From: Aristaeella hokkaidonensis
GTDB lineage: Bacteria; Bacillota; Clostridia; Christensenellales; Aristaeellaceae
Length of the DNA: 64,000 nucleotides
Direction of reading: 5' to 3'
Assembly: GCF_018128945.1 (NCBI RefSeq)
Contig: NZ_CP068393.1
Location: 2,108,001-2,172,000 of the forward strand
Shown here: piece after piece, positions 8,000-27,129 of the stretch
Position numbering within the stretch: position 1 is the stretch's first letter
Layout of the letters: each line of letters starts with the position of its first letter
Made by a program: the position numbers and the translations under genes
Notes under the pieces: generated by a model
Database searches by the model: none
The model's input: the letters and a program-made list of their open reading frames with translations, nothing else
What the model was told of the DNA's origin: nothing

Positions 8000-8995
8000 T
8001 CAATCATTATTACTTGAAACCGGAATATATACCTTCTTCAACGGAATGATCTTCTGATACTTTTCACTGAGCTGATCGTAATACTTCAAAATAAGATCTA
8101 CCAATTCGACGCCATTGATTCCACGAATTATCGGATTCGCTTTTAAAAACACCTGGGCATTTTTTGTATAATTCGACAGCGTAACAAACAAGCCATAATC
8201 TCCGGGCATCATTGCGCCTTTCAGAGATTGAATCGTGGTTTCCTTTATATCACTATCTTGGCTTTTTACCTGTACAGCAATACGAGGTGGCAATTCATCT
8301 TTATATGCAATAATATCAATTCCGCTATCTCCACCATGCTGAGATACACTTGTCCTATATCCCATTGCATTCAATAAATCTGCTATGAAATCTTCCAAAT
8401 CATACCCTTTTAATTTGCTGCTCAACTCTTTAAGAATAAAATCCCTTGTGCTCTGAATAATCTCCTCTGCCGTTGCACCTACAGTTGGATCTATTTTTTC
8501 AGATTTGTTCTTTTTCACAAAATCATTATCTAATGCTGCAATAAATTCATCTGCATAATTCTTCACAGTAAAGAAAGCTAATGCGGAACCTACCTCATAT
8601 AAAGCACCTTGTGAAAACGCAGTACGAGGCAACTTTTTGATCCACTTAATATTATGCTTTTGAGGATACACGTCTTCTGCCGAATCGTAAAAATATGAGC
8701 CTTGAACAATCCCGATATTGATCATCCGGTCAATCTTAGAAGGATAGACTACATAGTCTCCATCCTTCACTTCAAAACAAAATCGATAAAGCATTCCAGC
8801 GCAAGTCGGAATGCTACCCTTAGGATCATTAGGATAAGTCAAAGCATATTCCTTCTTGATCGCCTCACGATCCGCAGGAAAGCGCGAAATATCTCCGAAT
8901 TCCTTCCAACCTATCGCAATAACGCCTTCGTTCAAAAACAAATTGTCATCGTAAGTATGAATTCCCCAAAGCCATTTCTCATCTATATTACTCAT
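8000..8995 (-). CDS. Mrr-like restriction endonuclease with EVE-like N-terminal region
   Basis: A 331-residue protein. The N-terminal ~130 residues (WLWGIHTYDDNLF, GVIAIGW, GDYVVYPS, NIGIVQGSYFY) resemble the EVE/PUA-like module found before Mrr nucleases, which in other systems recognises modified bases. The C-terminal domain has the Mrr-type PD-(D/E)xK core: E201 in EDFIADLL, GGDSGID with D223 and D227, and QVK with K244. Such enzymes usually cut modified DNA. The gene starts nine bases after hsdS with GAGGTG upstream, so it is transcribed with a type I system whose own methylation would have to be tolerated. It may be a backup nuclease against phages that evade or modify DNA. Confidence 0.85.
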   Translation of the reverse strand: MSNIDEKWLWGIHTYDDNLFLNEGVIAIGWKEFGDISRFPADREAIKKEYALTYPNDPKGSIPTCAGMLYRFCFEVKDGDYVVYPSKIDRMINIGIVQGSYFYDSAEDVYPQKHNIKWIKKLPRTAFSQGALYEVGSALAFFTVKNYADEFIAALDNDFVKKNKSEKIDPTVGATAEEIIQSTRDFILKELSSKLKGYDLEDFIADLLNAMGYRTSVSQHGGDSGIDIIAYKDELPPRIAVQVKSQDSDIKETTIQSLKGAMMPGDYGLFVTLSNYTKNAQVFLKANPIIRGINGVELVDLILKYYDQLSEKYQKIIPLKKVYIPVSSNND

Positions 8996-9004
8996 AGCAG
9001 CACC

Positions 9005-10198
9005 TCATTCAGCAACAGAAACTTTAACCTGACCATTTATCAGCATCGGTAGCAGGAAATCACGGAGAGAAACGAGTTGCTGATTTTCCTCGATATTCAA
9101 CCTCCACGCCTCCATAAGCCATCGTGTTTTGCACTCATATTCTAAGCAAAGAGACTTTGGTGGAACCAACACTTTCACTTCTCTTAGAAACATGTAATGT
9201 CGTGCAAAACCAACATTTGGAAGACGACAATTTTTAATCAAATGATATAGCAACAGTGCTGGTATTCGTTCGTTTTTTGCTCTGATTATTTTGGTTCCGT
9301 CTGTTCCTTTTGCAAAAGGAAAGTTGATGAATTTAAAATGAGTTGTTACGTCACCAAAAACCACACAACCTGTTTCATTTGAAAATAGATACTGTTTATC
9401 ATCCGTATACCCAGTAATAAGGTTGCTCGCTTGGTCAATAATAGGGTATTCACCTTTTTCCTGATAATCAGGTGCCATTATTGCCTTAAGTTTCGGGGCA
9501 ACATCAACCAAATCATCAAACTTGTCGACTTCCCACCCTTCCGGAATCTCCCGCTTCAGTTCATTGTTCCACACCATCTTCCCGCCGGAGGATTTATAGG
9601 GTTTACCGTTCTCATCTGGAAAATCAAACTGGACAAACCAGTAGTCATAAAGCAGCTTCGTCATTGCTTCAAGATCAGCACAAATACCATTATTTTGATA
9701 AATCTTATCATTAAGGTTCCGCAAAAAACTCGCTATTTTTTTCTGTTCATTTAGATTTAACATTGGAATTAACATTTCTTCCGCTGACGTTACATTGAAA
9801 TGTTTTTGAATAGCGCCCACTTTTACATTTGACACCTGTGAGCGACCCCAAGAATTAATAAACGCACATAAGTAATAAGGATCTATTTTCTCCATATGAG
9901 GCCTAACGATTACCAAATCAGCACAATTACTGCCATCCAATTCTGGAGGAATCACAGCACAAGTACCAGGAACACCTGTTCTAACAATTACAACATCATT
10001 TGTTTTGAGCGCTGATTTATTCAACTTCATATGAAAATCAGACGGAATGTATTTTATATCATTCAAATCAAATCCAAAAGGTTTGATATTTAAAGAGCGA
10101 AGAAATAAAACTCCTTGAGATGAATACTCTTTCCCCATCGTTCCGACATAGCCTACCGTCAAGTCAGCTACATCAGAAAGCTTTCGCAACTCAATCAA
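9005..10198 (-). CDS. hsdS: Type I restriction specificity subunit HsdS
   Basis: A 397-residue protein with the standard two target-recognition domains separated by helical spacers: TRD1 about 1-150 (LSDVADLTVGY, AIQKHFNVTSAEEMLIPM), spacer (LNEQKKIASFLRNLNDKI), TRD2 about 210-360 (IPEGWEVDKFDDL, FATHF-type core) and a second spacer (LRDFLLPMLINGQVKV). It sets the recognition sequence of the HsdRMS complex. Translation starts at TTG at 10198, overlapping the hsdM stop (TTGA) with GGAGGG upstream, a tight translational coupling. No second hsdS or inverted copy for phase variation is seen nearby. Confidence 0.95.
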   Translation of the reverse strand: MIELRKLSDVADLTVGYVGTMGKEYSSQGVLFLRSLNIKPFGFDLNDIKYIPSDFHMKLNKSALKTNDVVIVRTGVPGTCAVIPPELDGSNCADLVIVRPHMEKIDPYYLCAFINSWGRSQVSNVKVGAIQKHFNVTSAEEMLIPMLNLNEQKKIASFLRNLNDKIYQNNGICADLEAMTKLLYDYWFVQFDFPDENGKPYKSSGGKMVWNNELKREIPEGWEVDKFDDLVDVAPKLKAIMAPDYQEKGEYPIIDQASNLITGYTDDKQYLFSNETGCVVFGDVTTHFKFINFPFAKGTDGTKIIRAKNERIPALLLYHLIKNCRLPNVGFARHYMFLREVKVLVPPKSLCLEYECKTRWLMEAWRLNIEENQQLVSLRDFLLPMLINGQVKVSVAE

Positions 10199-11814
10199 AA
10201 CTTCAGCCCTCCCATCTGTTCCAGGATCCTCTTTTCCAGCTCCGCGCCTTCGCGGAACCTCTCAGACAGCGAGGTCATATACCCATCCATCTGCTTTATG
10301 AACTCTTCTTCCGTTATATCCACATACTCAATCTTCACTTCAAAGTACTGACCAGCAGAGAAGGAACATCCCTTCTCTTTTAACGCATCATAAGATACCA
10401 ACACAGAGAAGTCATCTTTCATTTCCCGATTGATAAACGTCTCAATGATCTGATCAATCTCTTCCTGCCGCAATACCGTTTTCTGATTCTTTCCTTCTTT
10501 CACTATCTCGCCCAATTTAGATGCATCCATCAGAACAACATCATCATACTTGTTTGCTTTATCAACAAAAACTACTGACACATTCGTTCCAGTGTTAGCA
10601 AAAATATTGCTAGGCATGGAAACCACACCCATCAGCATTTTCTTCTCCACCAAATACTCCCTGATTTTTTTCTCGATACCATTCTTCGCGGTCAAGAATC
10701 CTGTCGGTACCACAATTGCACCTTTTCCCGTGCTTTTAATGGAATTGATAAAATGTTGTACAAAGCAGGTATATATAGCCATGCTTTCTTTCTTCTTACC
10801 TGGAACAGAAGGCACTCCTGCCCAAAACCGAGTCCCCATAGCTGCCAAGCTCTCCCGTGTTTCAGAAAAATCAAGCTTAAACGGCGGATTGCAAACAACG
10901 TAATCGAATTGACGTAAGTTTGTTCCATCATCACTCATATGATATGGATTCGTCAATGTATCCCCTTGAATCGCATGGTCCAATGACGACACCAATCCAT
11001 TTAGGATCAGATTCAACTTAAGCATCTTATTGCTCTTTTGTGAACGATCTTGTGCAAAAATCGTACACTTATCTTCACCCACCTGATGACCAATTGCCAT
11101 CAATAACGTACCAGTACCAGCTGCCGGGTCGTAGCACTCGATATTATGCAAATCAGTATCCTTACCCACCAGTAGTTTAGCCATGATGACAGCAATAAAA
11201 TGAGGTGTGTAATACTCTGCATATACACCACCACCATTGGTATTGTAATCCTTAATCAAATATTCAAAAACTGTTGCAAAGAAATCATAGCTTTCACCAA
11301 ATGCATCCTCAAAAGAGAATTTTGCCAACTTATCTACCAACGCTCTGGCAAATTGTGCTCGTTGAGAATCATCAGTTACATAATTTGTTAATTTTTCAAA
11401 CAACGGGATTTTTGTGTTGTTGGCTGTCTGTGTTGAAAAAATACTAATGTTTTTATCAGCTATGTCCACCATGGTGCTATCAAAAATCACATCAAAATCG
11501 CCTTTTTGCTGTTGATTCCAGAGGAAAGAAATCAAATGTTCTGGATTCAAGCGAAGCACATCCGGAGACAATGAATCCAGTAGATCCATTCTTTCATCCT
11601 CAGGCATTGCTGTATATGCCTCATCCCACTTCTTCGCAGATGCAATCACTGGGCTTATCTTTTTTAACTCATAGCCAAATTTATCATTCAAAAATTTATA
11701 CAAAAACACCTGAACAATAACTTTATATTCATTGCCATCATTACCAAGACCATAATTATGACAAATCGCTTTCAGATTATCGATCAGATCCATCGTTTGC
11801 TGTTTAATATCCAT
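10195..11814 (-). CDS. hsdM: Type I restriction DNA adenine methyltransferase HsdM
   Basis: A 539-residue N6-adenine methyltransferase. An N-terminal helical HsdM_N region (LKAICHNYGLGNDGNEYKV) is followed by the S-adenosylmethionine motif CYDPAAGTGTLL (about residue 230) and the catalytic NPPF (about residue 305). Length fits the family. It methylates the site chosen by HsdS and protects host DNA; with HsdR it forms the restriction complex. AAGGAG lies eight bases before the ATG. It is the second gene of the operon, 33 bases after hsdR, and overlaps hsdS. Confidence 0.97.
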   Translation of the reverse strand: MDIKQQTMDLIDNLKAICHNYGLGNDGNEYKVIVQVFLYKFLNDKFGYELKKISPVIASAKKWDEAYTAMPEDERMDLLDSLSPDVLRLNPEHLISFLWNQQQKGDFDVIFDSTMVDIADKNISIFSTQTANNTKIPLFEKLTNYVTDDSQRAQFARALVDKLAKFSFEDAFGESYDFFATVFEYLIKDYNTNGGGVYAEYYTPHFIAVIMAKLLVGKDTDLHNIECYDPAAGTGTLLMAIGHQVGEDKCTIFAQDRSQKSNKMLKLNLILNGLVSSLDHAIQGDTLTNPYHMSDDGTNLRQFDYVVCNPPFKLDFSETRESLAAMGTRFWAGVPSVPGKKKESMAIYTCFVQHFINSIKSTGKGAIVVPTGFLTAKNGIEKKIREYLVEKKMLMGVVSMPSNIFANTGTNVSVVFVDKANKYDDVVLMDASKLGEIVKEGKNQKTVLRQEEIDQIIETFINREMKDDFSVLVSYDALKEKGCSFSAGQYFEVKIEYVDITEEEFIKQMDGYMTSLSERFREGAELEKRILEQMGGLKF

Positions 11815-11847
11815 TATGATTTCTCCTTATACTTTGTTCTTCAATTA

Positions 11848-14800
11848 TCATGAAACCAAATACGTTTCATTATATTGATTTAAATACTGTTTCGTTATCC
11901 TACCTTGAATGAATGTCCGATCTTCCCTGGAGGATGCCATTCCCATTTGATCCATTTGACTTTTAATTTCTGTCATAACAGTCTGTTCGAAATACGCATC
12001 CTTTTTCAGGATATCATTTCGATCATATACTTTTTGATCCACGCTGTTTTTAATCTTCATCAAAGCCTGAACAATGGACTCATCATAGAGAGAAACAATC
12101 GGTTTTGTTCTCTCCACTTGTCTTCTCGCATTCTCCTCTCTGATCCGCTTATGAACCCGAACAAACTTCGCATCATGATTATAACGTCGCATAAGTGCAT
12201 TATTCTTTGTCTGAATATCTTCTAGTTTTCTTAACACTTCATCAAAGAATCTGGAATAATCATTATATTCATCTATATTTGCCGGCTGAAAACCATGCTC
12301 TTTGAACCGTTCCAAATATGCTTCCTTAAGTGTTATAAATACAGGATCCTCAGGATCCACATTTTCAGCGAACTTCCTGGTGACTGCCTGGAACTTGTTC
12401 TGTAGTTCCTCCCCTCCAGCAACAATTCTCAACTCTTCCTCACCGATTTTGCTAAAATTAAACTCAATATCCTGCATTGCTTCATTAAGCATGCCAGCAA
12501 TCTCGTCGCCACGCTCAATCGCTTCTCGCTGATTAACACTCTTAATGCGCAACTGCACATTTGAAATATAGTCCTTGATATTTTCAATTTGATAACCCGA
12601 GAATGAATCTATAAGTTCCTTATCACCAAAGGTTCTTATCATATTAAAGCAATCTCGGACTTCAACCAATGCTTTACGCAGATCCAGCAATTTCTGTTTA
12701 TCCTCAATCGTTGAGATCTCCGTATTAAAAACCTCAGCATTATCCAGAGAATAATCAAACAATATCTGTCGTGCTTCCTGGATTCTGTTTTTCAATGCAT
12801 TTCGATCTTCCAAAACCTGAGTGACAATACTTATTTCATTGCCATGGCCAACCTCATTTGGATCATTATATTTATTCAATTCGGCTAAATATGCAGCGTT
12901 TGTCTCCTCGAAATTCTGCTTTATATCTGCAAAATCTATAATATAACCATACCGCATATCTTTACCATATGGCCGATTTACCCGAGTAATAGCCTGCAGC
13001 AAATTATGATCCTTAAGCTTACGACCAAAGTACAACCGCTTTAGTCTTGGTGCATCAAACCCTGTCAAAAGCATGTTGAAAACAATCAGAATATCGATAG
13101 TATTATTGATCTTAAAATCATCGATTATTTGTCCACGGATTTCCTTATCGTCACTATCATAAAGAATCAAACCTGCTTTAAGATGACTAGGATTAGAAGC
13201 ATCCTGATTCAATTCCATCTGAATTCCATCAAAATGCGCGAATAGTTTTCTTGCCTGTTCGCTTGTCTCACAGATAATCATTCCACCCAACGAATTATCA
13301 CCACGTATTGTACGGAACTTATTCAGATCCGTAATAACATAACGCAATAGTTCATCTATATAATTATCATGCTCGATAATTTGAGCTTTCTTGATTTCTT
13401 TTTTCTGAACCAAAGTTTCCAGCGAATGATAAATCTGCTCCAATTTTTCACGATATGACGTTTCTATATCTTCCCTTATTATTTTCAACGTATACCCATC
13501 TTGAACTGATTTATCATAATAATACGTATGTATATAAGTACCAAAGACACGCCAAGATTCTCGTTCTTCTTTCAGCAAAGGAGTACCAGTTAATGCCAAC
13601 TTAACAGCATTTCTATCCGCATTTACTAGATTCATTAAAAACGAGCCTTCCGGCCGATATCCACGATGAGCTTCGTCGATAATCAAAATGCGCTGAAGAT
13701 TTGTGGCATAGGGCGGTAATGTGATCTTTTCATTATCCTCCTTAAAACGTTGTATATTGACAACAGTTATCTCATTTGCTCCAGTATTTCCTTCCAGTGA
13801 TTGATTCTCACGGAACTGGTTCATTAATTCATCTCTGGAATTGGCTGTTTTTACAATAAGACCTCTTGCCTCAAACTCTTCTCTTGCTTGTTTTAACAAA
13901 TCCAAGCGGTCAACAATGAAATAGAACTTTGCCACCTTTTTTGTTGAGGCATAATAATCCGTTAGTACATAGTTTAAATGATATGACAACGCAGTTTTCC
14001 CGCTACCCTGCGTATGCCATATTACGCCAGACGTTACACCTTGAGATATTTTTTCTCGGACTTTAAGTGCAGCAAACATCTGTTGATAACGCATAATATG
14101 TTTTTGATCAATGCGTTCAATCGTTCCATCCTCTTTTTCTCTGGTTTTATGATAATACGCAAATGCATATTTCAAAATAAAAAGAAGACGTTTAGGGCTA
14201 CACATTGATGTAAGGGCTCTATTTGTCGGAGTATTTATATTCAAATTAGTCTGATACTCCGATGCAGTGTGTATGACTTGACAGTTAAATTCCTCCAGTA
14301 TTTTTTTCTCCACTATCGGATCAATCGGAAGATACGGATAGTCATTATGATATGGTGCAACTGGGTGATTCAGTGGATTTTCCTCCCTGAAGCAATTAAA
14401 AGGAGCATATTTCTTTGATGCTGTACAATAGAAAACACCCTGCAATGGAACGATTCCACCCATAGCATCATATTCCATATTATTAGAGAAGATCATTAAT
14501 TGAGTAATATTAATAAATCGCCTGAATTTTTTATTGGGGAAACGTTGACGATTCATTCTCTCTGCTTCCGCAACCATTCCACCAATATTATTCGGCTTCT
14601 TCACTTCAATAAAAACCAATGGCAAGCCATTAATAAATAAGGTTATATCCGGGCGGAACTCATCCTCATCTCTTCGGCATGTGAATTCGCCTGTGAAACA
14701 AAAGCTATTCTTTTCTAAATGTTCAAAATCAATCAGCTTTACAGGGGAAACTGAATGTAAACGCTTATAAAAACTTTCACCTATATCGTCATTATCCAAT

Positions 14801-15027
14801 TCCTGACGTATTTGACGTAATACGCTCAACCCTTCACCCGAATGTTCAGGATTAAGTTCATCAAACTTGTTGCAAAATTCATTTATAAGAATATTGGTAT
14901 CTGGATCATATACCACTCCCGCCATATCCTCATATATTTTACCGAAGTAACGATACCCCAATCTAGTCAGATGCACCATTGCTGGCATCTGCACTCTTGT
15001 TGCTTCGTTATACTGACTATGCGGCAT
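11848..15027 (-). CDS. hsdR: Type I restriction endonuclease/translocase HsdR
   Basis: About 1059 residues from the ATG at 15027, chosen because GGAGG sits eight bases upstream; an ATG at 15042 is also in frame. The N-terminal PD-(D/E)xK nuclease core is visible as RPDITLFINGLPLVFIEVKK. It is followed by SF2 helicase motifs: Walker A HTQGSGKTA, LIIDEAHRG (motif II), LALTGTP (motif III), and TGFDAPRLKRLYFG with QAITRVNRPYGKD (motifs V-VI). A helical C-terminus docks on HsdM. The enzyme translocates DNA and cuts at distant sites. It is the first gene of the operon hsdR-hsdM-hsdS-mrr-repeat protein, with an AT-rich promoter-like region at 15060-15110. Confidence 0.96.
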   Translation of the reverse strand: MPHSQYNEATRVQMPAMVHLTRLGYRYFGKIYEDMAGVVYDPDTNILINEFCNKFDELNPEHSGEGLSVLRQIRQELDNDDIGESFYKRLHSVSPVKLIDFEHLEKNSFCFTGEFTCRRDEDEFRPDITLFINGLPLVFIEVKKPNNIGGMVAEAERMNRQRFPNKKFRRFINITQLMIFSNNMEYDAMGGIVPLQGVFYCTASKKYAPFNCFREENPLNHPVAPYHNDYPYLPIDPIVEKKILEEFNCQVIHTASEYQTNLNINTPTNRALTSMCSPKRLLFILKYAFAYYHKTREKEDGTIERIDQKHIMRYQQMFAALKVREKISQGVTSGVIWHTQGSGKTALSYHLNYVLTDYYASTKKVAKFYFIVDRLDLLKQAREEFEARGLIVKTANSRDELMNQFRENQSLEGNTGANEITVVNIQRFKEDNEKITLPPYATNLQRILIIDEAHRGYRPEGSFLMNLVNADRNAVKLALTGTPLLKEERESWRVFGTYIHTYYYDKSVQDGYTLKIIREDIETSYREKLEQIYHSLETLVQKKEIKKAQIIEHDNYIDELLRYVITDLNKFRTIRGDNSLGGMIICETSEQARKLFAHFDGIQMELNQDASNPSHLKAGLILYDSDDKEIRGQIIDDFKINNTIDILIVFNMLLTGFDAPRLKRLYFGRKLKDHNLLQAITRVNRPYGKDMRYGYIIDFADIKQNFEETNAAYLAELNKYNDPNEVGHGNEISIVTQVLEDRNALKNRIQEARQILFDYSLDNAEVFNTEISTIEDKQKLLDLRKALVEVRDCFNMIRTFGDKELIDSFSGYQIENIKDYISNVQLRIKSVNQREAIERGDEIAGMLNEAMQDIEFNFSKIGEEELRIVAGGEELQNKFQAVTRKFAENVDPEDPVFITLKEAYLERFKEHGFQPANIDEYNDYSRFFDEVLRKLEDIQTKNNALMRRYNHDAKFVRVHKRIREENARRQVERTKPIVSLYDESIVQALMKIKNSVDQKVYDRNDILKKDAYFEQTVMTEIKSQMDQMGMASSREDRTFIQGRITKQYLNQYNETYLVS

Positions 15028-15201
15028 CTCTCTAGCCTCCATTTTCTCACAATATATGGATATAGCACGAGTTTAATGTATATATAATATCAGCTAACTA
15101 TTACAGTGTCATCTTCTTTTCATACATATCACTATAATAATATACGGATCTATCAATCTTTATACCGTTATCAAACCCAATATCATATACAATATGTAAA
15201 A

Positions 15202-17142: not shown

Positions 17143-18987
17143 TCAAGATACTTTCTCTGCATATTCATTAAATGCATTCCAAACACTTACTGCGTACTTT
17201 TTTTCTGCATAATCAGTAATTTCAGTAAAGTGTAATTTCCCTAAATCTATTCCATATCCATGATCGATAATTACTTCATTAAAAGAACCGGATACAGCAT
17301 CACTCTTACATTCAAGGAAATCATTTCTGAACGCAGTAAAATGTATTTTTGCAGCTGTATCGTTTTGACCTATAATGATATTATTCCAGAAAAAAAGGGA
17401 TAATTGCGGGCAAATACTTATCGGTCCAATACGATTGTAACAGATTGCATCATAATTATAATATGTCCTCTTACCATAAAAACCACTAACTGTTTTAGGA
17501 TCTTCTCTATATTGACAAACAGACATTGTAGAAGATGAATTGAAGATCAAAAGATAATCATATCCCTCATAAGATGTGGCATATATTTTTTGTGATGTTC
17601 CTGTATATGTTTTCTTTCCAGAAATAAAAGCTATAGCATTGAATAAAACAACAATCAACACAGCTATAAGCAAAAATCTCCTTAATGAATTATCTTTGGA
17701 AGCTGCCTTTGTTGATCCAACCGATGTATTAGCCTTATTATCTTGATGGATAGACTTCTCATCATTCCTAACAAAATACTCTAGAGGCTCATCACTCAAT
17801 CCAGTCGTATTTGATTTGGCTATAGTTTTCTTAATTGGTTTATTCGGAAGTACATAATCAATATTATTATATGCAGAAACAGCTCGCTTTCTTTTGGCAA
17901 TAGTTGATTCCAACTCTTTTAGGTAATCATCAATACTATAAGTTTTGCCATGAGCCTTTTGATCCAAATGCAACATAAGCATTCTCATACTATCTGTGTA
18001 ATCGGTAAATAAAACCAAAGCATTTCGGATATCCCGCAGCTTATATACTGATTCGAATCCCAACGGTTCATTGCTTTTCGATTGTTGATTATCACTATTT
18101 ATGTACATCTTTATTGCAATCAATTGTGACCTTGCTTCTTTTGCTAGAGCTGCCCATTTATCTCCATAGTTCCCAAAATCAACAAAAGGATTTTCAACCT
18201 CAGCATATTTTTCATAATCTGTCTCTATCTCATGCATCCGCTTAATCAAATTATCAAACTTATTCTTAATTCCTTCCACACTTTGAACTGAGCCATAAGA
18301 TTCCTTATTAAGAGTTTTTTCAGCGTTTTGTACCAGTGGCTGTATAGGCTCGCAATGCACTGAGAGATTAGGCTTTTTACCTTCATGTTTCTGAACCGTT
18401 GTTGTTTTGATAGTTATAGATGCTTGCACACATTTCCCATCATAATTTGTTTTCAACACATATGTTTTTCCACTTTTGAATTCAATAGAAAAAGATGTCA
18501 AGCATCCTTTAATGGATTGTATATCATCGACATTAATCTCATAATATCTATCTGTTGGTTTTTTGCCTTCATACTCGTATCTTTCCCGAATAAAAAACCT
18601 ATTTCCATTTATCAAATCATAAGCATCGAACAGAGGTTCAATTAATCCCTTATTGCTAGAAACCATCACCCTGAACGGCGGATTAATTTCACAAAACGAC
18701 TTGATTAATTCATAGATATGATTTTTGATATCAGACTCACGATAATCGAAAGAATAATCTTTTTGAAATTGAACTCTATCCTGTCTCCACGCTTTCTCCA
18801 GATCGTATATGATTTGTTCATCATTTTTATTTTTTTCTTTATTTTGACGTGTCCCAACAATATATGAACTGATTTTGTCATCTGTTGTCCAATGCTGCTT
18901 TTCCATAAACTGTTTAACATAATGATTATATTCATCCGTCGGAATATATACGATAGTCTTTGCATGCTTTAAAGCAAACCAGCTCAT
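17143..18987 (-). CDS. Large single-pass membrane protein of unknown function
   Basis: A 614-residue protein; the ATG at 18987 is chosen for GGAG eight bases upstream. The long N-terminal part (about 1-430) is soluble and charged, with no known domain. It has a beta-rich stretch around RYYEINVDDIQSIKGCLTSFSI, reminiscent of a pleckstrin-like fold, and a helical segment at about 235-375. One hydrophobic segment at about 434-453 (FLLIAVLIVVLFNAIAF) follows a basic K/R-rich stretch. A C-terminal ~160-residue domain lies beyond the membrane. Topology by the positive-inside rule puts the N-terminal part in the cytoplasm. It is followed by a small ORF and the LRR gene on the same strand, so the three may form one unit. 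Function unknown. Confidence 0.7.
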   Translation of the reverse strand: MSWFALKHAKTIVYIPTDEYNHYVKQFMEKQHWTTDDKISSYIVGTRQNKEKNKNDEQIIYDLEKAWRQDRVQFQKDYSFDYRESDIKNHIYELIKSFCEINPPFRVMVSSNKGLIEPLFDAYDLINGNRFFIRERYEYEGKKPTDRYYEINVDDIQSIKGCLTSFSIEFKSGKTYVLKTNYDGKCVQASITIKTTTVQKHEGKKPNLSVHCEPIQPLVQNAEKTLNKESYGSVQSVEGIKNKFDNLIKRMHEIETDYEKYAEVENPFVDFGNYGDKWAALAKEARSQLIAIKMYINSDNQQSKSNEPLGFESVYKLRDIRNALVLFTDYTDSMRMLMLHLDQKAHGKTYSIDDYLKELESTIAKRKRAVSAYNNIDYVLPNKPIKKTIAKSNTTGLSDEPLEYFVRNDEKSIHQDNKANTSVGSTKAASKDNSLRRFLLIAVLIVVLFNAIAFISGKKTYTGTSQKIYATSYEGYDYLLIFNSSSTMSVCQYREDPKTVSGFYGKRTYYNYDAICYNRIGPISICPQLSLFFWNNIIIGQNDTAAKIHFTAFRNDFLECKSDAVSGSFNEVIIDHGYGIDLGKLHFTEITDYAEKKYAVSVWNAFNEYAEKVS

Positions 18988-19291
18988 TTTCAGCACTCCT
19001 TTTTGCTTATATTACAGCCTAGTTTTTCAATCATTTTCCCCTAGAATCCAGTCCCATTCCTAAACCTATAACAACAAGTCCCATACATATATTCCCAGTT
19101 GTATTTCTATGATATCCGCTTATTAAACAATCTTTTTCGTGACATTTATTTATAGAATTATATCATCCACCATACTTTCTCCACAACACAAAAACAACCT
19201 AAAGCCATTTTCGAAAAAAGGCCTCGGTATTACCAGAGCCTGCCCTCATCATTCATATTTCCTTCCATCCGAATGCAGGATCGGTTCAAAT
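18988..19291. other. Intergenic stretch, one probable terminator, no gene seen
   Basis: No supported coding frame. It contains the ribosome site of the membrane-protein gene at its left end and, at 19218-19245, a bulged hairpin (GGCAGGCTC...GAGGCC on the minus strand) followed by TTTTTTC that probably terminates the HD gene. Confidence 0.4.
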
Positions 19292-19864
19292 TTATGTTTT
19301 ACCGAACAGCGCCGTGTATAACTCTACGTATTCCCTGTATTCCGGTGTCTCGCGCAGAGTTTCATCCTCACCAAAGGCATTGGCCAGCTCGCCATAATAC
19401 ATGCCCTGCATTACCGGATTTTTTTCATTGAACTTCTGCCACAGTTTCTCACCGATAACCTTATAATCCCGGGTCATCGCTCGGATATTGGAAAGCTTGT
19501 CACCCAGAGCAAGCATCCTGATTTCCGTATCCGCCTTCCGGAGATGTTCTATGGTTTCTGTTTTCCGAATCAGCCAGGTTTCACCTTCAGGCCGGTCTTT
19601 CCGTTTGTCCTCACTTTCCGCTGCCACAAGGTCCGCTACACGCTGGCCGAAAGCTTCGACCAGTTCTTCTTTTGTTGTCTTTGTATCTTCCAGGGTATCG
19701 TGCAGAACAGCCGCCGCACGGAGTTCCTCGTCTTCCGTCATACGGGAGACGATCTCCATGGCTTCCATGACATGAGTGAAATAGGGAATTGAAGTCCCCT
19801 TCCTCACCTGTCCGGCATGCTTCACCATTGCGAATTCAATTGCGCGATCAAGTAGTGTTGCCAT
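19292..19864 (-). CDS. HD-domain hydrolase, SpoT/MESH1-like (possible small alarmone hydrolase)
   Basis: A 190-residue protein starting at 19864 with GGAGGGATC upstream. The motif order is that of RelA/SpoT hydrolase-type HD domains: YFTH (H31), HDTLEDT (H55, D56) and GDKLSNIRAM (D122). These residues bind the manganese used to remove pyrophosphate from (p)ppGpp in family members. There is no synthetase or TGS domain, so the protein would be hydrolase-only, as in small alarmone hydrolases. Base composition is more balanced than in the flanking defence genes. It appears monocistronic. Activity on ppGpp is inference from motif order. Confidence 0.82.
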   Translation of the reverse strand: MATLLDRAIEFAMVKHAGQVRKGTSIPYFTHVMEAMEIVSRMTEDEELRAAAVLHDTLEDTKTTKEELVEAFGQRVADLVAAESEDKRKDRPEGETWLIRKTETIEHLRKADTEIRMLALGDKLSNIRAMTRDYKVIGEKLWQKFNEKNPVMQGMYYGELANAFGEDETLRETPEYREYVELYTALFGKT

Positions 19865-19914
19865 CTGAACGATCCCTCCTTCTTTCCTTTCCGCAGTCCC
19901 CGGCCACGGCCATA

Positions 19915-20016
19915 TCATATAACAGAACGGGGATAATTTGGTCGCCGACCAGGCGACATCCAACACAGCACATGAAATTCCGATAGATTGGGAACCATTC
20001 TGTTGTTTTCATTCAT
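19915..20016 (-). CDS. Possible 33-residue ORF upstream of the HD gene
   Basis: ATG at 20016 has AAGGAG nine bases upstream and reads MNENNRMVPNLSEF followed by HVLCWMSPGRRPNYPRSVI and a stop at 19915. The good ribosome site suggests translation, perhaps as a leader peptide or as the remnant of a truncated gene. No similarity is recognised. Confidence 0.25.
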   Translation of the reverse strand: MNENNRMVPNLSEFHVLCWMSPGRRPNYPRSVI

Positions 20017-20164
20017 TTCCGTACTCTCCTTTCTGCCATGAAGAGCACGGAAAAGCCATCCTATCGTTCAAGCTTTGGCACCTTATTTTTCCCTATATGC
20101 TTTAATAAATAGTATCGTATGTTATAATCATTCCAGTTAGGACACTCTGAAAGGAAATGGCAAT

Positions 20165-21697
20165 ATGAAAAGGAAAAGCTTCTTTTTATCTGTTTCCCTT
20201 ATACTTATCCTATGCATTACAGCAGCATATGCAGAAGAATGGATCTGCTCAAACTGTGGCAAACCAAACACAGCCAATTTCTGTACAAACTGTGGTCAGG
20301 AGCATGATGTATGGATATGTCCTGGCTGTGGTGAAAAAAATGATGATTCTTTCTGCGGTAATTGTGGCACTCCAAAACCTATAGATCTTTCTTTCCTCTA
20401 TGGCACATGGAAATACGATTATGAAGATTATGACTCTTACGTCGTTTTTCACGAAGATAATACCATGCTGGTTTCCAACACTCATGGCGGTGTAGGTCAG
20501 GGAACATATACTGCTACCGCTAATCAAATTACCATGTCTGTTGATACTGATGACGAAACAACGACCCAATATAAATATATCGACGATAAAATATATCTCG
20601 ATAATAAACCTGTTCCACTTATCCGATCTAAAGAGGCCGCAAGGTTTTGTGTTTGCCTGGATACCGAAACCATGGATGACACTTTCCCTGTCGATACTGA
20701 ATTATTCTTTGAGTGTAAAGATTTTTCTGAACTCCAACGATTCGACATCGTTGCTGTTTACTATCCTGTACATCGCAAAAACATCCATGTGGATAGAATT
20801 GTCGGATTCCCTGGAGATACCATTGTCCTGCAGGATGGATACCTTTTTGTTAATGATGAGAAATATGATGAGCCATACATCAACAATGAATACCGAACGG
20901 GCGAATCGAATCAGTTCGGTCCCTATACCGTTCCTGAAGGCCAATTCTTCGTCCTGGACGACCATCGCAACAAAGCCTATGACAGCAGAAACATCGGCGC
21001 ACTCGACGCCGGCATGTTTGTTGGCGCTATGATTCCAAATCCTGATCTGGACATCTTTACCGGCCAGATCACTGGTTTTCATTGGGATAGGACGATTGAT
21101 GTCGAAAAATCCACAGATACACCCGGTTCTGGTTGGGTACTTCCTGATGGTGCGACGCTGACGGATCAAAGAGAAGAAATATATTCCTATGATAGTGTTT
21201 TTGATCACTATGAAGAGGCAGAAGTTCAACGTTCCACTCAGGTGTTTGATCACAATGAAATATATTATACTTATGAAGATAACAGCAATGGTACCTTCAC
21301 AGAAGTACCGCATGAACGTCCCGTCTACACTACAGAGTATTATACCGAAACAGTACAGCAACCAGTATATGTCGAAGTACCACATTATGAAACAAAGTAT
21401 TACTACACCACTAAGAGCTGGCAGTACGCACGCCAGATAACATCATCCGGAGATGACCAGAATCCTTACTGGCCCACAGATCCGATTTCATCAGATGAAA
21501 GGCAGGGAAAGCAATCGCAAATCAATACCCTGACCGTTTCAGATGGCGATATTACTCGAACCTACAGAGTTGATGAATCATATTGGACTTCTGTTAATCT
21601 CGGTGATACCGTTTATATTACATTCCAAAGGAACATCGCTGAGACTTATATCTCAGACAGTATAGGTAATTACTTGGCCCCGGCTTCATTACAATAA
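20165..21697 (+). CDS. Secreted zinc-ribbon protein with a degenerate signal-peptidase I (S26) domain
   Basis: A 510-residue protein. A signal peptide (residues 1-23, ending AYA-EE) is followed by two double-CxxC zinc ribbons at about 27-70 (CSNCG, CTNCG, CPGCG, CGNCG). A lipocalin-like beta region at 78-150 (LYGTWKYD) comes next, then an S26 fold at about 163-290: RFDIVAVY, RIVGFPGDTI, YLFVNDEKY, VPEGQFFVLDDHRNKAYDSRNIG. The catalytic Ser of the usual SM motif is Thr169 (ETM) and the catalytic Lys of the KR motif is Asp210 (VDR), so the dyad is lost. The C-terminal third is Tyr/Thr/Glu-rich with short repeats. The protein is probably extracytoplasmic and non-proteolytic, perhaps binding peptides. 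A monocistronic unit with AAGG upstream of ATG. Confidence 0.75.
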   Translation: MKRKSFFLSVSLILILCITAAYAEEWICSNCGKPNTANFCTNCGQEHDVWICPGCGEKNDDSFCGNCGTPKPIDLSFLYGTWKYDYEDYDSYVVFHEDNTMLVSNTHGGVGQGTYTATANQITMSVDTDDETTTQYKYIDDKIYLDNKPVPLIRSKEAARFCVCLDTETMDDTFPVDTELFFECKDFSELQRFDIVAVYYPVHRKNIHVDRIVGFPGDTIVLQDGYLFVNDEKYDEPYINNEYRTGESNQFGPYTVPEGQFFVLDDHRNKAYDSRNIGALDAGMFVGAMIPNPDLDIFTGQITGFHWDRTIDVEKSTDTPGSGWVLPDGATLTDQREEIYSYDSVFDHYEEAEVQRSTQVFDHNEIYYTYEDNSNGTFTEVPHERPVYTTEYYTETVQQPVYVEVPHYETKYYYTTKSWQYARQITSSGDDQNPYWPTDPISSDERQGKQSQINTLTVSDGDITRTYRVDESYWTSVNLGDTVYITFQRNIAETYISDSIGNYLAPASLQ

Positions 21698-21797
21698 TAA
21701 AAAACATTTAAACAGGAAACACAAAACCGTCCCCTGTCACTTCATTTTATTATGAGCAAAATTCCCTTTTGTTAAAGCACTTTATACGACTATCGTT

Positions 21798-22322
21798 TTA
21801 CCAATTGCACCCAGCTTTCACAAAATCATCCCAGCTACATCCATGTATTTTGTAACAGCAAAATTCTCGTAGACATCGACAAAAGTATAGCAAAAACGTT
21901 CTGTTTGATTTTGTATTCCCTTCAACATCTTCATAGAGATACCTTACATCTTGAAAATTATTATCTATGATCATAATAGCTTCATCAAAATATGATTTTG
22001 AACCAAATTCTTCAAAAATGTGCAAAAAGCTCTGTGCGGATACGGGATCAACCTGTTCGTATCTATCCCATAAGCTTTGGATATGATGTTTCATCTTTCG
22101 GACATCATCAATTGATTCACCCTGCAAAAGAAGTAGAGATTTTAGATATACCTCGCAACTGAAACATGATAGGACAATATCAGGTATTCCTAAAAATTGA
22201 GTCATATTAAAACCAGAACCCTTAATCTCTGTATGACAAAAGTATGTGCAATCCATGAATGCACAAGCATGTTTGAACATTCTCTTAGCCATAACTATTA
22301 TTTCTTGTTTTTGTTTAGACAT
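21798..22322 (-). CDS. HEPN-like protein, third gene of the DAC-peptidase-HEPN operon
   Basis: A 174-residue all-alpha protein starting at 22322 (GGAGGGGAAA upstream). The segment PDIVLSCFSCEVYLKSLLLLQG, then KMKHHIQSLWDRY, and later NFQDVRYLYE follows the pattern of HEPN-family proteins (a helix with E-x-Y-L-K, a histidine-containing helix, and F-x-x-[VW]-R-Y-x-[YW]-E). A strict R-x4-6-H catalytic motif is not evident, so it may be a non-catalytic HEPN or an RNase with diverged motif. Six of its cysteines are in the last third. It is the last gene of a three-gene minus-strand unit, 45 bases after the HExxH gene. Role as effector or RNA-binding partner is inference. Confidence 0.6.
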   Translation of the reverse strand: MSKQKQEIIVMAKRMFKHACAFMDCTYFCHTEIKGSGFNMTQFLGIPDIVLSCFSCEVYLKSLLLLQGESIDDVRKMKHHIQSLWDRYEQVDPVSAQSFLHIFEEFGSKSYFDEAIMIIDNNFQDVRYLYEDVEGNTKSNRTFLLYFCRCLREFCCYKIHGCSWDDFVKAGCNW

Positions 22323-22367
22323 TTTCCCCTCCACTTATTCTTAGATTGCACTCACAATCTATATGCC

Positions 22368-23324
22368 TTATCTATTATCAAGATACTTTATACGTATTCC
22401 ATATTCATCAGTAAAAAAATACACCCCAAACATTTTGTAGTATTTAAACACACATTCTTGAATGGATAATGGAATGATCACTTTGCAGGATGCACGCGCT
22501 GATTTATATAAATCATCAAATTCTCTGTTTATACATTCAATAACAACTTGTATATTTGTGTCTTTCAACTCATTATTGACATTCTTATTCGATACAACAT
22601 CCCCCAACAAATAGCATAAATACTTAAGGGATAGTTGTAGATACTCTTGAAAGCACTTAATGAATTCAACTGCTTTCAGTTCATTTCTTCTAAGCTTTTG
22701 CACTAGTTTTTCAACTTTTATTTCTATATCCACTATTATCTTCTTCAATGATTTATCATAAAAAGGAATACTAACTTCTGAAGCTCTCCTACATGCATAG
22801 TATTCCTCAAACATGATTTTAGCCAATCCTTCATGATATAAATCAAAAGAATTCTTTTTAGGAAACTCTATCTCCGTTATAATCTGGCTATTATACTCAA
22901 CATGTGATAATTCATGAATCAACAAATTTATAAGATGATCACGGTGTACAAACGCTTCCCTTTTCTGTTCTTCATTGTCTTGATATAGTCGATTCAAAGA
23001 ATCATTGTCCATCAAACCCAACATTTCATAAGCATCTAAAAAAACTGTTTGTTTATTAGTCTTTATATCACAAATTGTTTTACCAAAAACAATTCCAAAT
23101 TCATTCTCCGTAACTTCTTCAATTAATTCATGTTCATACTGATATACTTTTATACTTTCAGTCAAACGATCTGTAATGATTATCTCATTAAGACTATCAA
23201 TTGCAAGAACTTTAGCATACTCTTCTATAACAGCATTAACCGCTGTTTCATAGAATCGTTTCACACTATCCTCTTCGATTTTAAGTCGAGAAACAATATC
23301 CATAATACTCGTTTTTATTGTCAT
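22368..23324 (-). CDS. HExxH metallopeptidase-like protein, second gene of the DAC operon
   Basis: A 318-residue protein from the ATG at 23324, which follows AGGGAA; a longer frame would overlap the upstream gene. The central segment LINLLIHELSHVEY contains HExxH with H137, E138 and H141, and a downstream FEEYYACRRAS (glutamates near 173) supplies the typical third zinc ligand of gluzincin-type peptidases. The N-terminal ~100 residues look like a separate mixed alpha/beta domain and the C-terminal ~140 residues are helical. No signal peptide, so it is cytoplasmic. It sits 16 bases after the DAC-like gene, so co-expression is almost certain. A protease activated by the nucleotide made or sensed by the DAC-like protein is a reasonable but untested idea. 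Confidence 0.7.
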   Translation of the reverse strand: MTIKTSIMDIVSRLKIEEDSVKRFYETAVNAVIEEYAKVLAIDSLNEIIITDRLTESIKVYQYEHELIEEVTENEFGIVFGKTICDIKTNKQTVFLDAYEMLGLMDNDSLNRLYQDNEEQKREAFVHRDHLINLLIHELSHVEYNSQIITEIEFPKKNSFDLYHEGLAKIMFEEYYACRRASEVSIPFYDKSLKKIIVDIEIKVEKLVQKLRRNELKAVEFIKCFQEYLQLSLKYLCYLLGDVVSNKNVNNELKDTNIQVVIECINREFDDLYKSARASCKVIIPLSIQECVFKYYKMFGVYFFTDEYGIRIKYLDNR

Positions 23325-23340
23325 ACAAATAAGTTCCCTA

Positions 23341-24801
23341 TCATTTTTCTTTTGGGTCAAATGGATATACATCCACTGTGTCATCAGAAGAAACGATTAT
23401 AGCAACTGCTCTTATCTTATTATTGCTTTGTTTAGATGCCCAATAATCAATATAAGTAATAGCAGAATTGTATCGAGCTCCCCTTGCTATCGTTCCTTGA
23501 TTAACTGTCGCTCCATCAAGAATAGCTCCTATTGCATGGCAAATCCCGTCCGTATCAATAATCATCGCTCCATCTATCGCAGATAAAGAAAGAATTGTTT
23601 TTTCATCTACAGCAATCGGATCTATGCCGACTGCTCGATTTGCGTTTATTAATCTTTCGCACTCACTAGCTGCATGATCAGAAACAATAATGGTGGTTCC
23701 ATGAGATTGTTTCTTTGCCTGCTCGACAATTTCGAAGACCTTTTTTTCGTTATACTTCTTTATGCCCGCCAATTCAAACCCTTTTTTGATCCTTCGACCA
23801 AGAGACTGATTTGTTATATTTATCATAACTGAATCAAATGACATAATGGAACCATTTTTATCAGAAAATAAATCCCACTTCCCATAACCCCTGAATATGA
23901 CCCCTGTTCCGGAATACTTCCCCTTACTGTCAGGAACCGAATATACACCAACCACTTCCCCTTTTTCTGCTATGAGGATTGTATTCCGTCTATCACTCAA
24001 TTCAAGTAGCTTACGAATGACTCTAACGTTTGCCTTGTTAATTTCAATCGGATTGGTAAAACGGATCATGGCATCGCTTTGCATTACTGTTTGTGTCGCG
24101 ATACCCAGCCTGCCTTTATTTTGACTTTTTTCGTATGGCGCAGAAGAAAGCAAACATAAAGCTTCATACAATTCATCTTTTCGGGGATCTTTTTCCACGC
24201 CATAAAACCTGCTTGAAAGAAGACTTATGGCCGCATTTTTCATTACTGTTGCCGAACTGATTTTTTTTGCTTCTACATCTTCGATCGTGTTTAATTCTTT
24301 TTTCTTTATCCTAGACCGAGTAGTACGCATCAATGATTTAAATACATATTGGAAAACCTCTTTATTCGATATTCCTCCGTTATAGCCGATAGCAACTGCA
24401 TACGCTTTGTCGCCATTCTCAAATTGACCTATATATTCAACATTGCTTAGCATAGTACGTGGATCATATTCTGATTCTTTCTCTTCCCACATTCTGAAAA
24501 CCCTATTGATATCTTCTTTTCTTGCATCTTTCAAAAGAGGATAATTATCAGGATTTTGTCCTCCCGGTGAATAAATAAAATGAGGAGTTCCATCAGGAAA
24601 AACAAGATATTGGTTTACTTCACTGCCATTATTATATGAATAAACAACCAATCCGTCAGAACTGACAAAAGCAACATCCACTTTTATATATACATGTTCA
24701 GCTCGAACATATTGCATAACAATCTCAATAGCATTCGTCAAATATAGAACAGTACGTTCCTGAAACGATGAGCTGTCAAAGTGTTCTTGAATAATATCCA
24801 T
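23341..24801 (-). CDS. DisA_N/DAC-like (diadenylate cyclase fold) protein, first gene of a three-gene operon
   Basis: A 486-residue protein. The C-terminal ~120 residues match a diadenylate cyclase (DisA_N/DAC) domain: LSAIDGAMIIDTDG with the DGA motif at 410-412, then GTIARGARYNSAITYIDY (440-447) in the place of the family's G-x-R-H-R-x-A. The DGA motif is kept but RHR is changed to R-Y-N, so it may make a different nucleotide or only sense one. The N-terminal ~350 residues contain at least one further alpha/beta domain (VYIKVDVAFVSSDGLVVYSY) and a basic helix near residue 165. No membrane segment. It starts at 24801 with a purine-rich GGAGGATGAGGG upstream and leads an operon with an HExxH peptidase-like and a HEPN-like protein. 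Confidence 0.75.
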   Translation of the reverse strand: MDIIQEHFDSSSFQERTVLYLTNAIEIVMQYVRAEHVYIKVDVAFVSSDGLVVYSYNNGSEVNQYLVFPDGTPHFIYSPGGQNPDNYPLLKDARKEDINRVFRMWEEKESEYDPRTMLSNVEYIGQFENGDKAYAVAIGYNGGISNKEVFQYVFKSLMRTTRSRIKKKELNTIEDVEAKKISSATVMKNAAISLLSSRFYGVEKDPRKDELYEALCLLSSAPYEKSQNKGRLGIATQTVMQSDAMIRFTNPIEINKANVRVIRKLLELSDRRNTILIAEKGEVVGVYSVPDSKGKYSGTGVIFRGYGKWDLFSDKNGSIMSFDSVMINITNQSLGRRIKKGFELAGIKKYNEKKVFEIVEQAKKQSHGTTIIVSDHAASECERLINANRAVGIDPIAVDEKTILSLSAIDGAMIIDTDGICHAIGAILDGATVNQGTIARGARYNSAITYIDYWASKQSNNKIRAVAIIVSSDDTVDVYPFDPKEK

Positions 24802-24876
24802 TATCCCTCATCCTCCATGTATCATGTGCCAATAAATTGACTATATATCAATACTTTTCCAAGCATTATATGTAGA

Positions 24877-24906
24877 ATTATAACATTTCTATCATTCATA
24901 CCACAA
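24877..24906 (-). promoter_or_regulatory. Probable sigma-A promoter of the DAC operon
   Basis: On the minus strand TTGTGG (24906-24901) and a perfect TATAAT (24882-24877) are separated by 18 bases, about 75 bases upstream of the DAC-like start codon. Confidence 0.55.
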
Positions 24907-24967
24907 CAAAAACCAGCTAAAAACTCCCTTTCTTAATGATCACTCTCTTTTCTCTCTGCTCCCACTC

Positions 24968-25056: not shown

Positions 25057-27129
25057 ATGAGCAAACGGTTGATCGGCCTGGTGCTGGCCCTGGTATTGTT
25101 GGTTGGTTGTGTGCCTGTGTCTGCTGGTGGTTCCATGACGGTGCAGGAAATTGTGGACCAGGTGGTTATCCCGATGGCGCTGGAAAATGATCGAGGGGGC
25201 ACTGGGTTCAGCCGGTACTTCAGCTATGAAGATCTGGCGGAAATTGTGCGGGTGTTTGAGGAAAACGGGTTTGTTCTTCCGGAGAATGATGTTGTCATGC
25301 AGTTTGTGACAAGCGGCTACGGAGTCCCTGAAGGCCTTGTGGCTGAAAGGTACTGCCAGCAGTTCTTCGGGCCGTTCGGCACCTGGACGGATGAACAGCA
25401 GGGCTGGTATGACGACCTGGAAGTCAGGCTGGGGCATGCTGAAACCTTCGGCTCCCATGTGCCGGGGAAAGACAATATGACCCGGGAGGAAGCGGTTGCC
25501 TGGGCGCTGAAGAAGATCCGGGAGGAGTACGGGGAGGATCTGCCCCTGGAGGATCCGGACATCTGGCAGATAACAGCGATGTTCATCAAAGACGCCCCAT
25601 TTGGTTCTGATTCCCACCATGAGGATGAATGGTCTGTCTTCCTGACCCCGAAGAACCTGGAGCATGCGCGTTATGGTGCCACATTCGTCGACAGGGATCC
25701 CGAGAACAGTACCCAACTGTATTCCGCCTTCCTCGACCCGGAGGAACCCTTCACCCTTAATCAGCTGCGGAATATTTTCGACATCGTTTACGGGGTGAAA
25801 AAGAACTGGCCCCAGTCTGCCTGGCAGGCATACCATGAATGGCTGCAGAAGGTGGAGCTGAATCCGTCAGACTACGACTATACCGATTATCTGGCATTCC
25901 GGATGACCGGTTATCCCGAATCCAAAGCAGATGAGATCTCCCGGGAGGAGGCCATCCGGATCGCAAAGAAAGCCATGGCAAACGAGAGGGCGTCCTATAA
26001 CAGCGCCGTGCTGACAGAATACGAAGGCGAGCGCACCTGGCTGGTTTCCTTTCTGATCGAGTTTCCTTTTTTCTCTTCTGTTGATGAAGATGAGGAAAGC
26101 GGAGACTATGTGGTCAGCATTGACAGCGTAACCGGTGAAGTCCGCAGCCTGCGGATGGAGCGCTCTTACAACCCTTCCTTCTGCTATGCCCCGGAAAAGG
26201 TATACACGGAAATCCAGGAGATGCTGCCGAAGGAGGAGGACCTGCTCCCGCTGGCTGTGGAAGCCGTGCGAAAAAAGTATCCCGAGGCGGGAGACCCGCT
26301 GGATGAAGAGAACTACAGCTGGTTTTCCGGCCTGAGCGGCTATGGGTTTATCAAATTCACCGCCCGGAACCTGCAGCACAGCAATATCGAAGTACGGTTT
26401 AAACAGAACGGAAAGGTGGATAAAGTGACCATGGATCCACCCGTGGACGGAGACAACCTGTTCAGCCGGTTCTATGATCTTTACGGGCCCATGGGCAAAT
26501 GGGATCAGACCGTATGGGTGCAGCTGGAAAAGGACATGAAGGAGCTGGAGCCTAAAGAAATCCTGGGCAAGGTGATAAAGGCCACCCACTATCCGGAGGA
26601 ATCCTCCGTGAGCATCAAGCAGGAGAAGGCGCGGGAACTGGGACGTGAAACCACCGGTAAAAATATGACAGAAGTGAACAGCTGCGTACTGGTGGACGCG
26701 CAGCCCCATCCCGTGTGGATCATTGAGCTCCTGACGGAACATACCCTGTCCATCGTCGGGATTGACGCGGAAACCGGCGAAACCGTGCTTTCCATGCCGT
26801 GCAGGGCTGACTTCTCACCGCGGTACATATCCTTCTCCCTGCCGGAAATCTGGCGGAAGATCGAAATGGAGGAAAAGGGCCCGCGTTATATGGCCCCGGC
26901 GGCGATCATCGACAGGGTATTCCCGGCGGATGAGGAATGGCGGGGGTACGATCTCGGCGACGTGGATGTCACCTGGATGGATTATTGTTATATGAATGAG
27001 GGCACCGCGTGGAGGATGGAAGTGGACGGGCTGACCGTACGCTGCATCAGCCACAGAGAAGGTGTAAAGAGCTACGAGGTGGAGTTTGATCAGGAGGGAA
27101 ACGTGATCCGGTTTGAGGAGAAAGACTGA
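25057..27129 (+). CDS. Large secreted lipoprotein with PepSY-like repeats
   Basis: A 690-residue protein with AAGGAGG upstream of ATG. The N-terminus MSKRLIGLVLALVLLVGC is a lipoprotein signal ending in an LVGC lipobox (Cys18), so the mature protein should be anchored outside the membrane. The rest contains several PepSY-like units: an E-E-A-[IV]-x-[IA]-A helix (SREEAIRIAKKAM, TREEAVAWALKKI, KQEKARELG) followed by strands ending in V-x-I-D-x-x-T-G-E (VVSIDSVTGEV, IVGIDAETGET). PepSY domains are thought to bind or inhibit peptidases. No catalytic motif is seen. It is the first gene after the AT-to-GC composition change and is followed by three small secreted paralogs on the same strand. Confidence 0.75.
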   Translation: MSKRLIGLVLALVLLVGCVPVSAGGSMTVQEIVDQVVIPMALENDRGGTGFSRYFSYEDLAEIVRVFEENGFVLPENDVVMQFVTSGYGVPEGLVAERYCQQFFGPFGTWTDEQQGWYDDLEVRLGHAETFGSHVPGKDNMTREEAVAWALKKIREEYGEDLPLEDPDIWQITAMFIKDAPFGSDSHHEDEWSVFLTPKNLEHARYGATFVDRDPENSTQLYSAFLDPEEPFTLNQLRNIFDIVYGVKKNWPQSAWQAYHEWLQKVELNPSDYDYTDYLAFRMTGYPESKADEISREEAIRIAKKAMANERASYNSAVLTEYEGERTWLVSFLIEFPFFSSVDEDEESGDYVVSIDSVTGEVRSLRMERSYNPSFCYAPEKVYTEIQEMLPKEEDLLPLAVEAVRKKYPEAGDPLDEENYSWFSGLSGYGFIKFTARNLQHSNIEVRFKQNGKVDKVTMDPPVDGDNLFSRFYDLYGPMGKWDQTVWVQLEKDMKELEPKEILGKVIKATHYPEESSVSIKQEKARELGRETTGKNMTEVNSCVLVDAQPHPVWIIELLTEHTLSIVGIDAETGETVLSMPCRADFSPRYISFSLPEIWRKIEMEEKGPRYMAPAAIIDRVFPADEEWRGYDLGDVDVTWMDYCYMNEGTAWRMEVDGLTVRCISHREGVKSYEVEFDQEGNVIRFEEKD

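Follow-up and report, generated by a model that had tools for sequence, protein, structure and literature searches.

A predicted DACNH–DAC protein encoded with a probable metalloprotease and a HEPN-like protein in an AT-rich island of Aristaeella hokkaidonensis

The locus described here raises the question of whether a protein with a diadenylate-cyclase-type (DAC) domain can make an immune signal alone, and whether the two genes that follow it would act as the output of such a signal. Defence by a DAC enzyme has been validated only inside the DS-2 system, where a CD-NTase is also present (as given in the available part of PMC13092281). Solo DACNH–DAC proteins from genomes that are CD-NTase-negative by model offer a direct test of whether the DAC alone suffices, and bear also on the identity of the product and on why the active site departs from the R-H-R motif.

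Layout and setting of the operon

Three minus-strand genes lie head to tail in the window (the whole stretch of DNA that was analysed, 64,000 nucleotides), separated by gaps of 16 and 45 bases, as the first-pass annotation had described. Gene 1 (23341–24801) encodes a DACNH–DAC protein of 486 residues, gene 2 (22368–23324) an HExxH protein of 318 residues and gene 3 (21798–22322) a protein of 174 residues; the starts are backed by relatives of similar length. The genes are presumably co-transcribed, and the gene 1 message probably also serves for the translation of genes 2 and 3. No promoter-like site upstream of gene 1 passed the promoter scan, and a terminator-like hairpin 3′ of gene 3 (21711–21738) stands at chance level (one found versus 1.5 expected).

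The operon occupies the right-hand end of a low-GC region that runs from the left end of the window to ~24.9 kb (GC 0.30–0.41 per kb, with 0.46 at 19–20 kb), to the right of which GC lies at 0.46–0.64 per kb; the operon itself has a GC of 0.30–0.37 versus 0.55 for the flank gene. The same AT-rich island carries, all on the minus strand, a type I restriction system (9005–15042, comprising HsdS at 9005–10198, HsdM at 10195–11814 and HsdR at 11848–15042), an Mrr-type nuclease (8000–8995, PADLOC PDC-S02) and an HD-domain gene (19292–19966, PF13328). The island also holds a gene that weakly resembles PtuB. The restriction and Mrr-type genes support the defence setting that had been proposed for the locus. 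Two further genes were noted here: one encoding a 510-residue protein that has a signal-peptidase S26 domain and is matched by zinc-ribbon models below their cut-offs (20165–21697, between the operon and the HD-domain gene), and an AT-rich one encoding a 617-residue protein for which neither Pfam nor PADLOC gives a match at E 0.001 (17143–18996).

The variable region is bordered by a plus-strand chromosomal gene (25057–27129, 690 residues, PepSY) with orthologues in the related genomes G023 (92%) and G001 (88%), and the DNA homology beside this gene ends at 24952 in G023 and at 24865 in G001, just short of the operon. At the corresponding spot G023 has DndC-like, DndD/PbeC-like, DndA/SspA-like, DpdE-like, DpdH-like and NsnA-like genes (the HD-domain gene is also found in this island, with 95% DNA identity over 19329–20069), and G001 has SIR2, ThsB-like TIR and DrmD-like genes; G001 also carries a DAC that shares 72% identity with gene 1. 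We infer that the spot beside the flank gene is a defence hotspot. The GC of gene 1 (0.372) differs from that of the G001 DAC (0.545), which suggests that the two arrived separately.

The DACNH–DAC protein and its R-Y-N motif

Pfam searches place two domains on gene 1 above their cut-offs, the diadenylate-cyclase-type domain that the first-pass annotation had recognized (PF02457, residues 359–473, 23383–23727, minus strand; 29.8 bits against a curated cut-off of 27, and 31.4 in a second search) and, N-terminal to it, a DACNH domain whose Pfam name is “probable sensor domain” (PF21750, residues 210–293, 23923–24174, minus strand; 49.5 bits against 27). The NCBIfam model DS2_3_antiphage (NF053872) matches gene 1 from residue 156 onward (198.2 bits, E 1.9e-58), far below the equivalog threshold of 630 bits, which is exceeded by an E. 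coli protein (818.8 bits) and a Citrobacter protein (803.8 bits). Judged by this profile homology, gene 1 is a distant relative of DS2_3, the DS-2 system cyclase, and we have good confidence in regarding it as a defence-linked DACNH–DAC. The available part of PMC13092281 gives DS-2 as a DefensePredictor system composed of a phospholipase, a cGAS and a DAC, in which mutating either of two predicted catalytic DAC residues (positions unspecified) abolished defence, and places CBASS beside 15 of 30 DAC homologues. The proposed link between this DAC family and phage defence thus stands by way of the distant DS2_3 homology and of the mutants in that part of the paper.

The DGA motif of the DAC domain (residues 410–412, 23566–23574, minus strand) is kept, and is invariant in a 22-row alignment, whereas at the position where CdaA has R-H-R gene 1 reads R443-Y444-N445 (23467–23475, minus strand), departing from the canonical CdaA/DisA-type motif. 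This change had been taken as a hint of a diverged, sensing form. A search gave 134 homologues, of which 120 were listed, counting the window's own cluster. Of those listed, 118 carry R-[YF]-N (R-Y-N in 113, R-F-N in five), 96 of them fitting the full pattern and 22 a looser pattern, with no such stretch found by these patterns in the two short proteins P0021 and P0058; among the 96 full-pattern homologues, 91 retain DGA. The E. coli DS2_3 protein, whose gene adjoins patatin-like and nucleotidyltransferase genes, itself reads SRGSRYNS, with DGT in place of DGA. Because R-[YF]-N is carried by 118 of the listed homologues and by this E. coli protein, R-Y-N is, on sequence grounds, a feature of the family, including the branch whose DAC is needed for defence, and the hint of divergence did not hold up. 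Decay or a private change was considered as the origin of the motif and is ruled out by the same count.

These observations also weigh on a reading considered by the first-pass annotation, in which a DAC domain that has lost catalysis would sense a nucleotide and so gate the protease. An Asn does replace the second Arg of R-H-R, while the one additional DAC protein of the host genome, which is CdaA-like, keeps DGA and GTRHR, and the DAC-domain score is barely above its cut-off; against this, both motifs recur across the family in the proportions given above, and R-Y-N is found in DS2_3, where predicted catalytic residues at unspecified positions are needed for defence (available part of PMC13092281), so that we consider a dead sensor improbable.

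DAC genes of the gene 1 type occur in three of 300 family genomes (the window's own counted, and one of the three lying on a contig fragment); for gene 2 and for gene 3 the figure is one of 300, the window's own genome in both cases. The neighbourhoods of 12 other DAC loci were read (from four of seven plasmid records, one of 18 E. coli genomes, both viral contigs, and genomes G679, G545, G707, G088 and G001), a set that includes two DS-2-like loci and leaves aside plasmid records H3, H5 and H6, the G255 contig fragment and a weak G644 match. The Citrobacter and E. coli DACs adjoin patatin and nucleotidyltransferase genes, and a Priestia locus has a CD-NTase ~0.7 kb away on the opposite strand. 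Prophage-like contigs carry two of the DACs: the first is flanked by portal-like and prohead-protease-like genes, and the second lies beside an integrase-like gene (names by eye). The closest placed relative, the G001 DAC, stands alone and ends ~490 bases from its contig end. In E. coli AR_0128 (L049, 2069–9746), the DS-2-like genes directly adjoin a second CBASS (phospholipase, DncV and an E2/UBC protein). The family also includes larger architectures: a 903-residue DACNH–DAC protein with C-terminal TPR repeats (G545, L025 6046–8757), and a 641-residue DACNH relative (P0027) whose C-terminal part holds a PF00717 S24/LexA-like peptidase domain, which links the family with proteolysis by fusion.

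Another explanation is that gene 1 regulates ordinary c-di-AMP physiology, such as osmolyte or potassium control, and happens to lie in a variable region. In Firmicutes c-di-AMP serves as a housekeeping messenger, and some solo DACNH–DACs stand among ordinary genes (that of G679 beside amino-acid-biosynthesis-like genes, names by eye). However, the host is already equipped with a CdaA-like protein whose motifs are canonical, relatives are carried on prophages and plasmids, and the sporadic presence, the AT-rich island, the restriction and Mrr neighbours and the DS-2 kinship all point elsewhere; we rate a purely physiological role as very improbable. The presence of a CdaA-like protein in the host further suggests that a defence signal from gene 1 ought to be distinct from plain c-di-AMP or confined to local use.

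The HExxH and HEPN-like proteins

Gene 2 contains the HELSH stretch (residues 137–141, 22902–22916, minus strand) and downstream Glu that the first-pass annotation had pointed out, the latter being Glu174 within EEYYACR (22803–22805, minus strand), and both prove to be conserved as a metalloprotease-type site: H137, E138, H141 and E174 are invariant in all ten aligned proteins and likewise present in a relative from phage vB_EcoM-613R3. These residues fit a zincin metal site, with HELSH as the putative metal-binding motif and Glu174 as the putative third ligand, and gene 2 is a probable zincin-type metalloprotease; its predicted model is weak and gave no structural match at E <= 0.001.

The close family of gene 2 numbers six proteins in a large database (the window's own and P0002–P0006), and a profile built from these six recognizes all five distant loci, on Brevibacillus and Peribacillus plasmids, in genomes G410 and G365 and in vB_EcoM-613R3 (E 1e-46 to 1e-5, the search set being small and made up of the loci read here). 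Both plasmid relatives hit PHROG 11743, a phage family whose function is unknown; the phage gene, found by using a plasmid relative, has HExxH followed by a downstream E-Y-x-A. It is located between portal gpQ and replication gpA, a position that is a P2 hotspot of antiphage systems (available part of PMC9122126), and is followed by a small gene and then by a gene of 313 residues (L050, 4849–5790) with one R-N-D-N-F-H stretch (R-x4-H). The operon thereby adds a little-known predicted protease family with one member in a phage defence hotspot.

The predicted fold of gene 3 is HEPN-like, in keeping with the HEPN-like helices first proposed, and we assign this fold less firmly than the gene 2 site. 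R75-x4-H80 is present in four of five relatives (the window protein and P0128–P0131, with Lys in P0130), R141-x4-H in P0129 alone (the window protein has Tyr), and the alignment holds no R-x4-6-H common to all five; an RNase role for gene 3 is accordingly no more than a possibility. Of the 174 residues 11 are Cys, eight of them invariant across the five close relatives, a pattern that may point to a function in metal binding or redox chemistry.

The annotation had treated the three genes as one candidate defence module, and the neighbourhood search that it had proposed for the three families gives no support to a recurring three-gene unit. No gene-2-like or gene-3-like gene stands beside the DAC in the 12 other DAC loci, and neither a DAC nor a gene-3-like gene beside the five gene-2-like genes, so that the DAC, HExxH and HEPN-like arrangement was not seen in the 17 related loci checked; with the exception of the G001 DAC these loci hold distant relatives, rather than the close relatives of gene 2 (five proteins) and gene 3 (four, P0128–P0131). 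Among them, L015 starts at its DAC and covers the downstream side only, L048 includes ~140 bases ahead of its gene, and L050 spans 3.5 kb either side. The contigs listed for the close relatives of genes 2 and 3 and for DAC relatives are mostly of unequal length, a hint that they are distinct, to which we give no weight since one cluster may comprise more than one contig. The three genes may form a small lineage-specific unit.

This separation lends weight to the possibility that two independent modules share the island, a solo DACNH–DAC on the one hand and an HExxH protease with a HEPN-like partner on the other, co-transcribed merely through tight packing. DAC relatives lack both partners in 12 of 12 loci and gene-2-like genes lack a DAC in five of five; moreover, the P2-like phage relative lies in its gpQ–gpA hotspot ahead of the small gene and the R-N-D-N-F-H gene, and the G410 relative adjoins a 215-residue gene and methyltransferases. 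Conversely, the 16- and 45-base spacing favours a joint unit, the sampled loci are, the G001 DAC aside, distant ones, and the protease–HEPN-like pair is itself not recovered: none of the five gene-2-like loci has a gene-3-like gene, PF18739 has no match in the phage record (the 313-residue gene included), and the 215-residue G410 protein has no sequence relation to gene 3. We regard two modules as possible, if somewhat less likely than not.

A possible mechanism and its relation to known systems

The best reading of the operon, in our view, is a CBASS-free variant of DS-2-type signalling joined to an accessory or effector pair, the pair being perhaps a second module. Gene 1 would encode a nucleotide cyclase for defence, gained by horizontal transfer and belonging to the DACNH–DAC clade that contains DS2_3, which acts without a CD-NTase; its N-terminal and DACNH parts would most likely respond to infection, whereupon the DAC domain would make c-di-AMP or a variant nucleotide. 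The output arm would consist of genes 2 and 3, with the gene 2 metalloprotease damaging a host or phage target and the HEPN-like gene 3 protein serving as its partner or regulator. The sequence itself documents the domains, the motifs, the island and the kinship with DS2_3; that the genes share a transcript, that gene 1 is catalytic and makes a signal, that phage activates it and that genes 2 and 3 respond to it are steps that we infer. The chain as a whole, from a defence cyclase through to an output by genes 2 and 3, falls a little short of probable. We favour it because both domains score above their cut-offs, because of the distant DS2_3 homology, the DS-2 mutants (available part of PMC13092281) and the same R-Y-N in the E. 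coli DS2_3 protein, and because of the defence island and hotspot, sporadic presence, low GC, prophage-like carriage and tight gaps. The initial interpretation is therefore retained as to the DAC, the defence setting, the gene 2 site and, less firmly, the gene 3 fold, and finds no support as to the diverged sensor and the recurring system. A broader proposal, that DACNH–DACs with R-[YF]-N make their own infection signal without a CD-NTase, and that here this signal drives a dedicated metalloprotease and its HEPN-like partner, we put forward as speculative and rather unlikely. Under this proposal, the departure from R-H-R might yield a nucleotide distinct from c-di-AMP, so that the signal would not clash with the housekeeping CdaA-like enzyme of the host.

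Membership of known systems was also considered. PF18144 finds no CD-NTase in the genome of the window (controls: five of 14 genomes, two over cut-off), and PDLC00823 finds none in six genomes bearing gene 1 relatives, the window's included (controls: six of 14), two models that a divergent CD-NTase could escape; genes 2 and 3 match neither a patatin nor a CD-NTase. The operon was accordingly rejected as a DS-2 member (198 bits versus 630, and no CD-NTase with the two models) and as a CBASS (no CD-NTase in the genome with the same models).

The two partner genes differ from their nearest known counterparts. The gene 3 family, unlike HEPN and MNT-HEPN proteins, has many conserved Cys and lacks a shared R-x4-6-H. 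The gene 2 profile recognizes the PHROG 11743 plasmid relatives and the vB_EcoM-613R3 protein, whereas these are only 18–24% identical to gene 2 and no DAC was found near them. CdaA has membrane helices and DisA has DNA-binding domains; gene 1 shares with both enzymes a Pfam DAC domain with DGA, but has R-Y-N for R-H-R and a DACNH domain in front. The idea of a cyclic-nucleotide signal driving effectors is common to CBASS, from which the operon differs in that its genome has no CD-NTase detectable by the two models. The closest likeness is to DS-2, with which gene 1 shares the DACNH–DAC core, the R-Y-N motif and a defence setting, although its neighbours are HExxH and HEPN-like genes rather than a phospholipase and a CD-NTase; by this analogy gene 1, while classed neither as DS-2 nor as CBASS, may work in part like the DS-2 cyclase.
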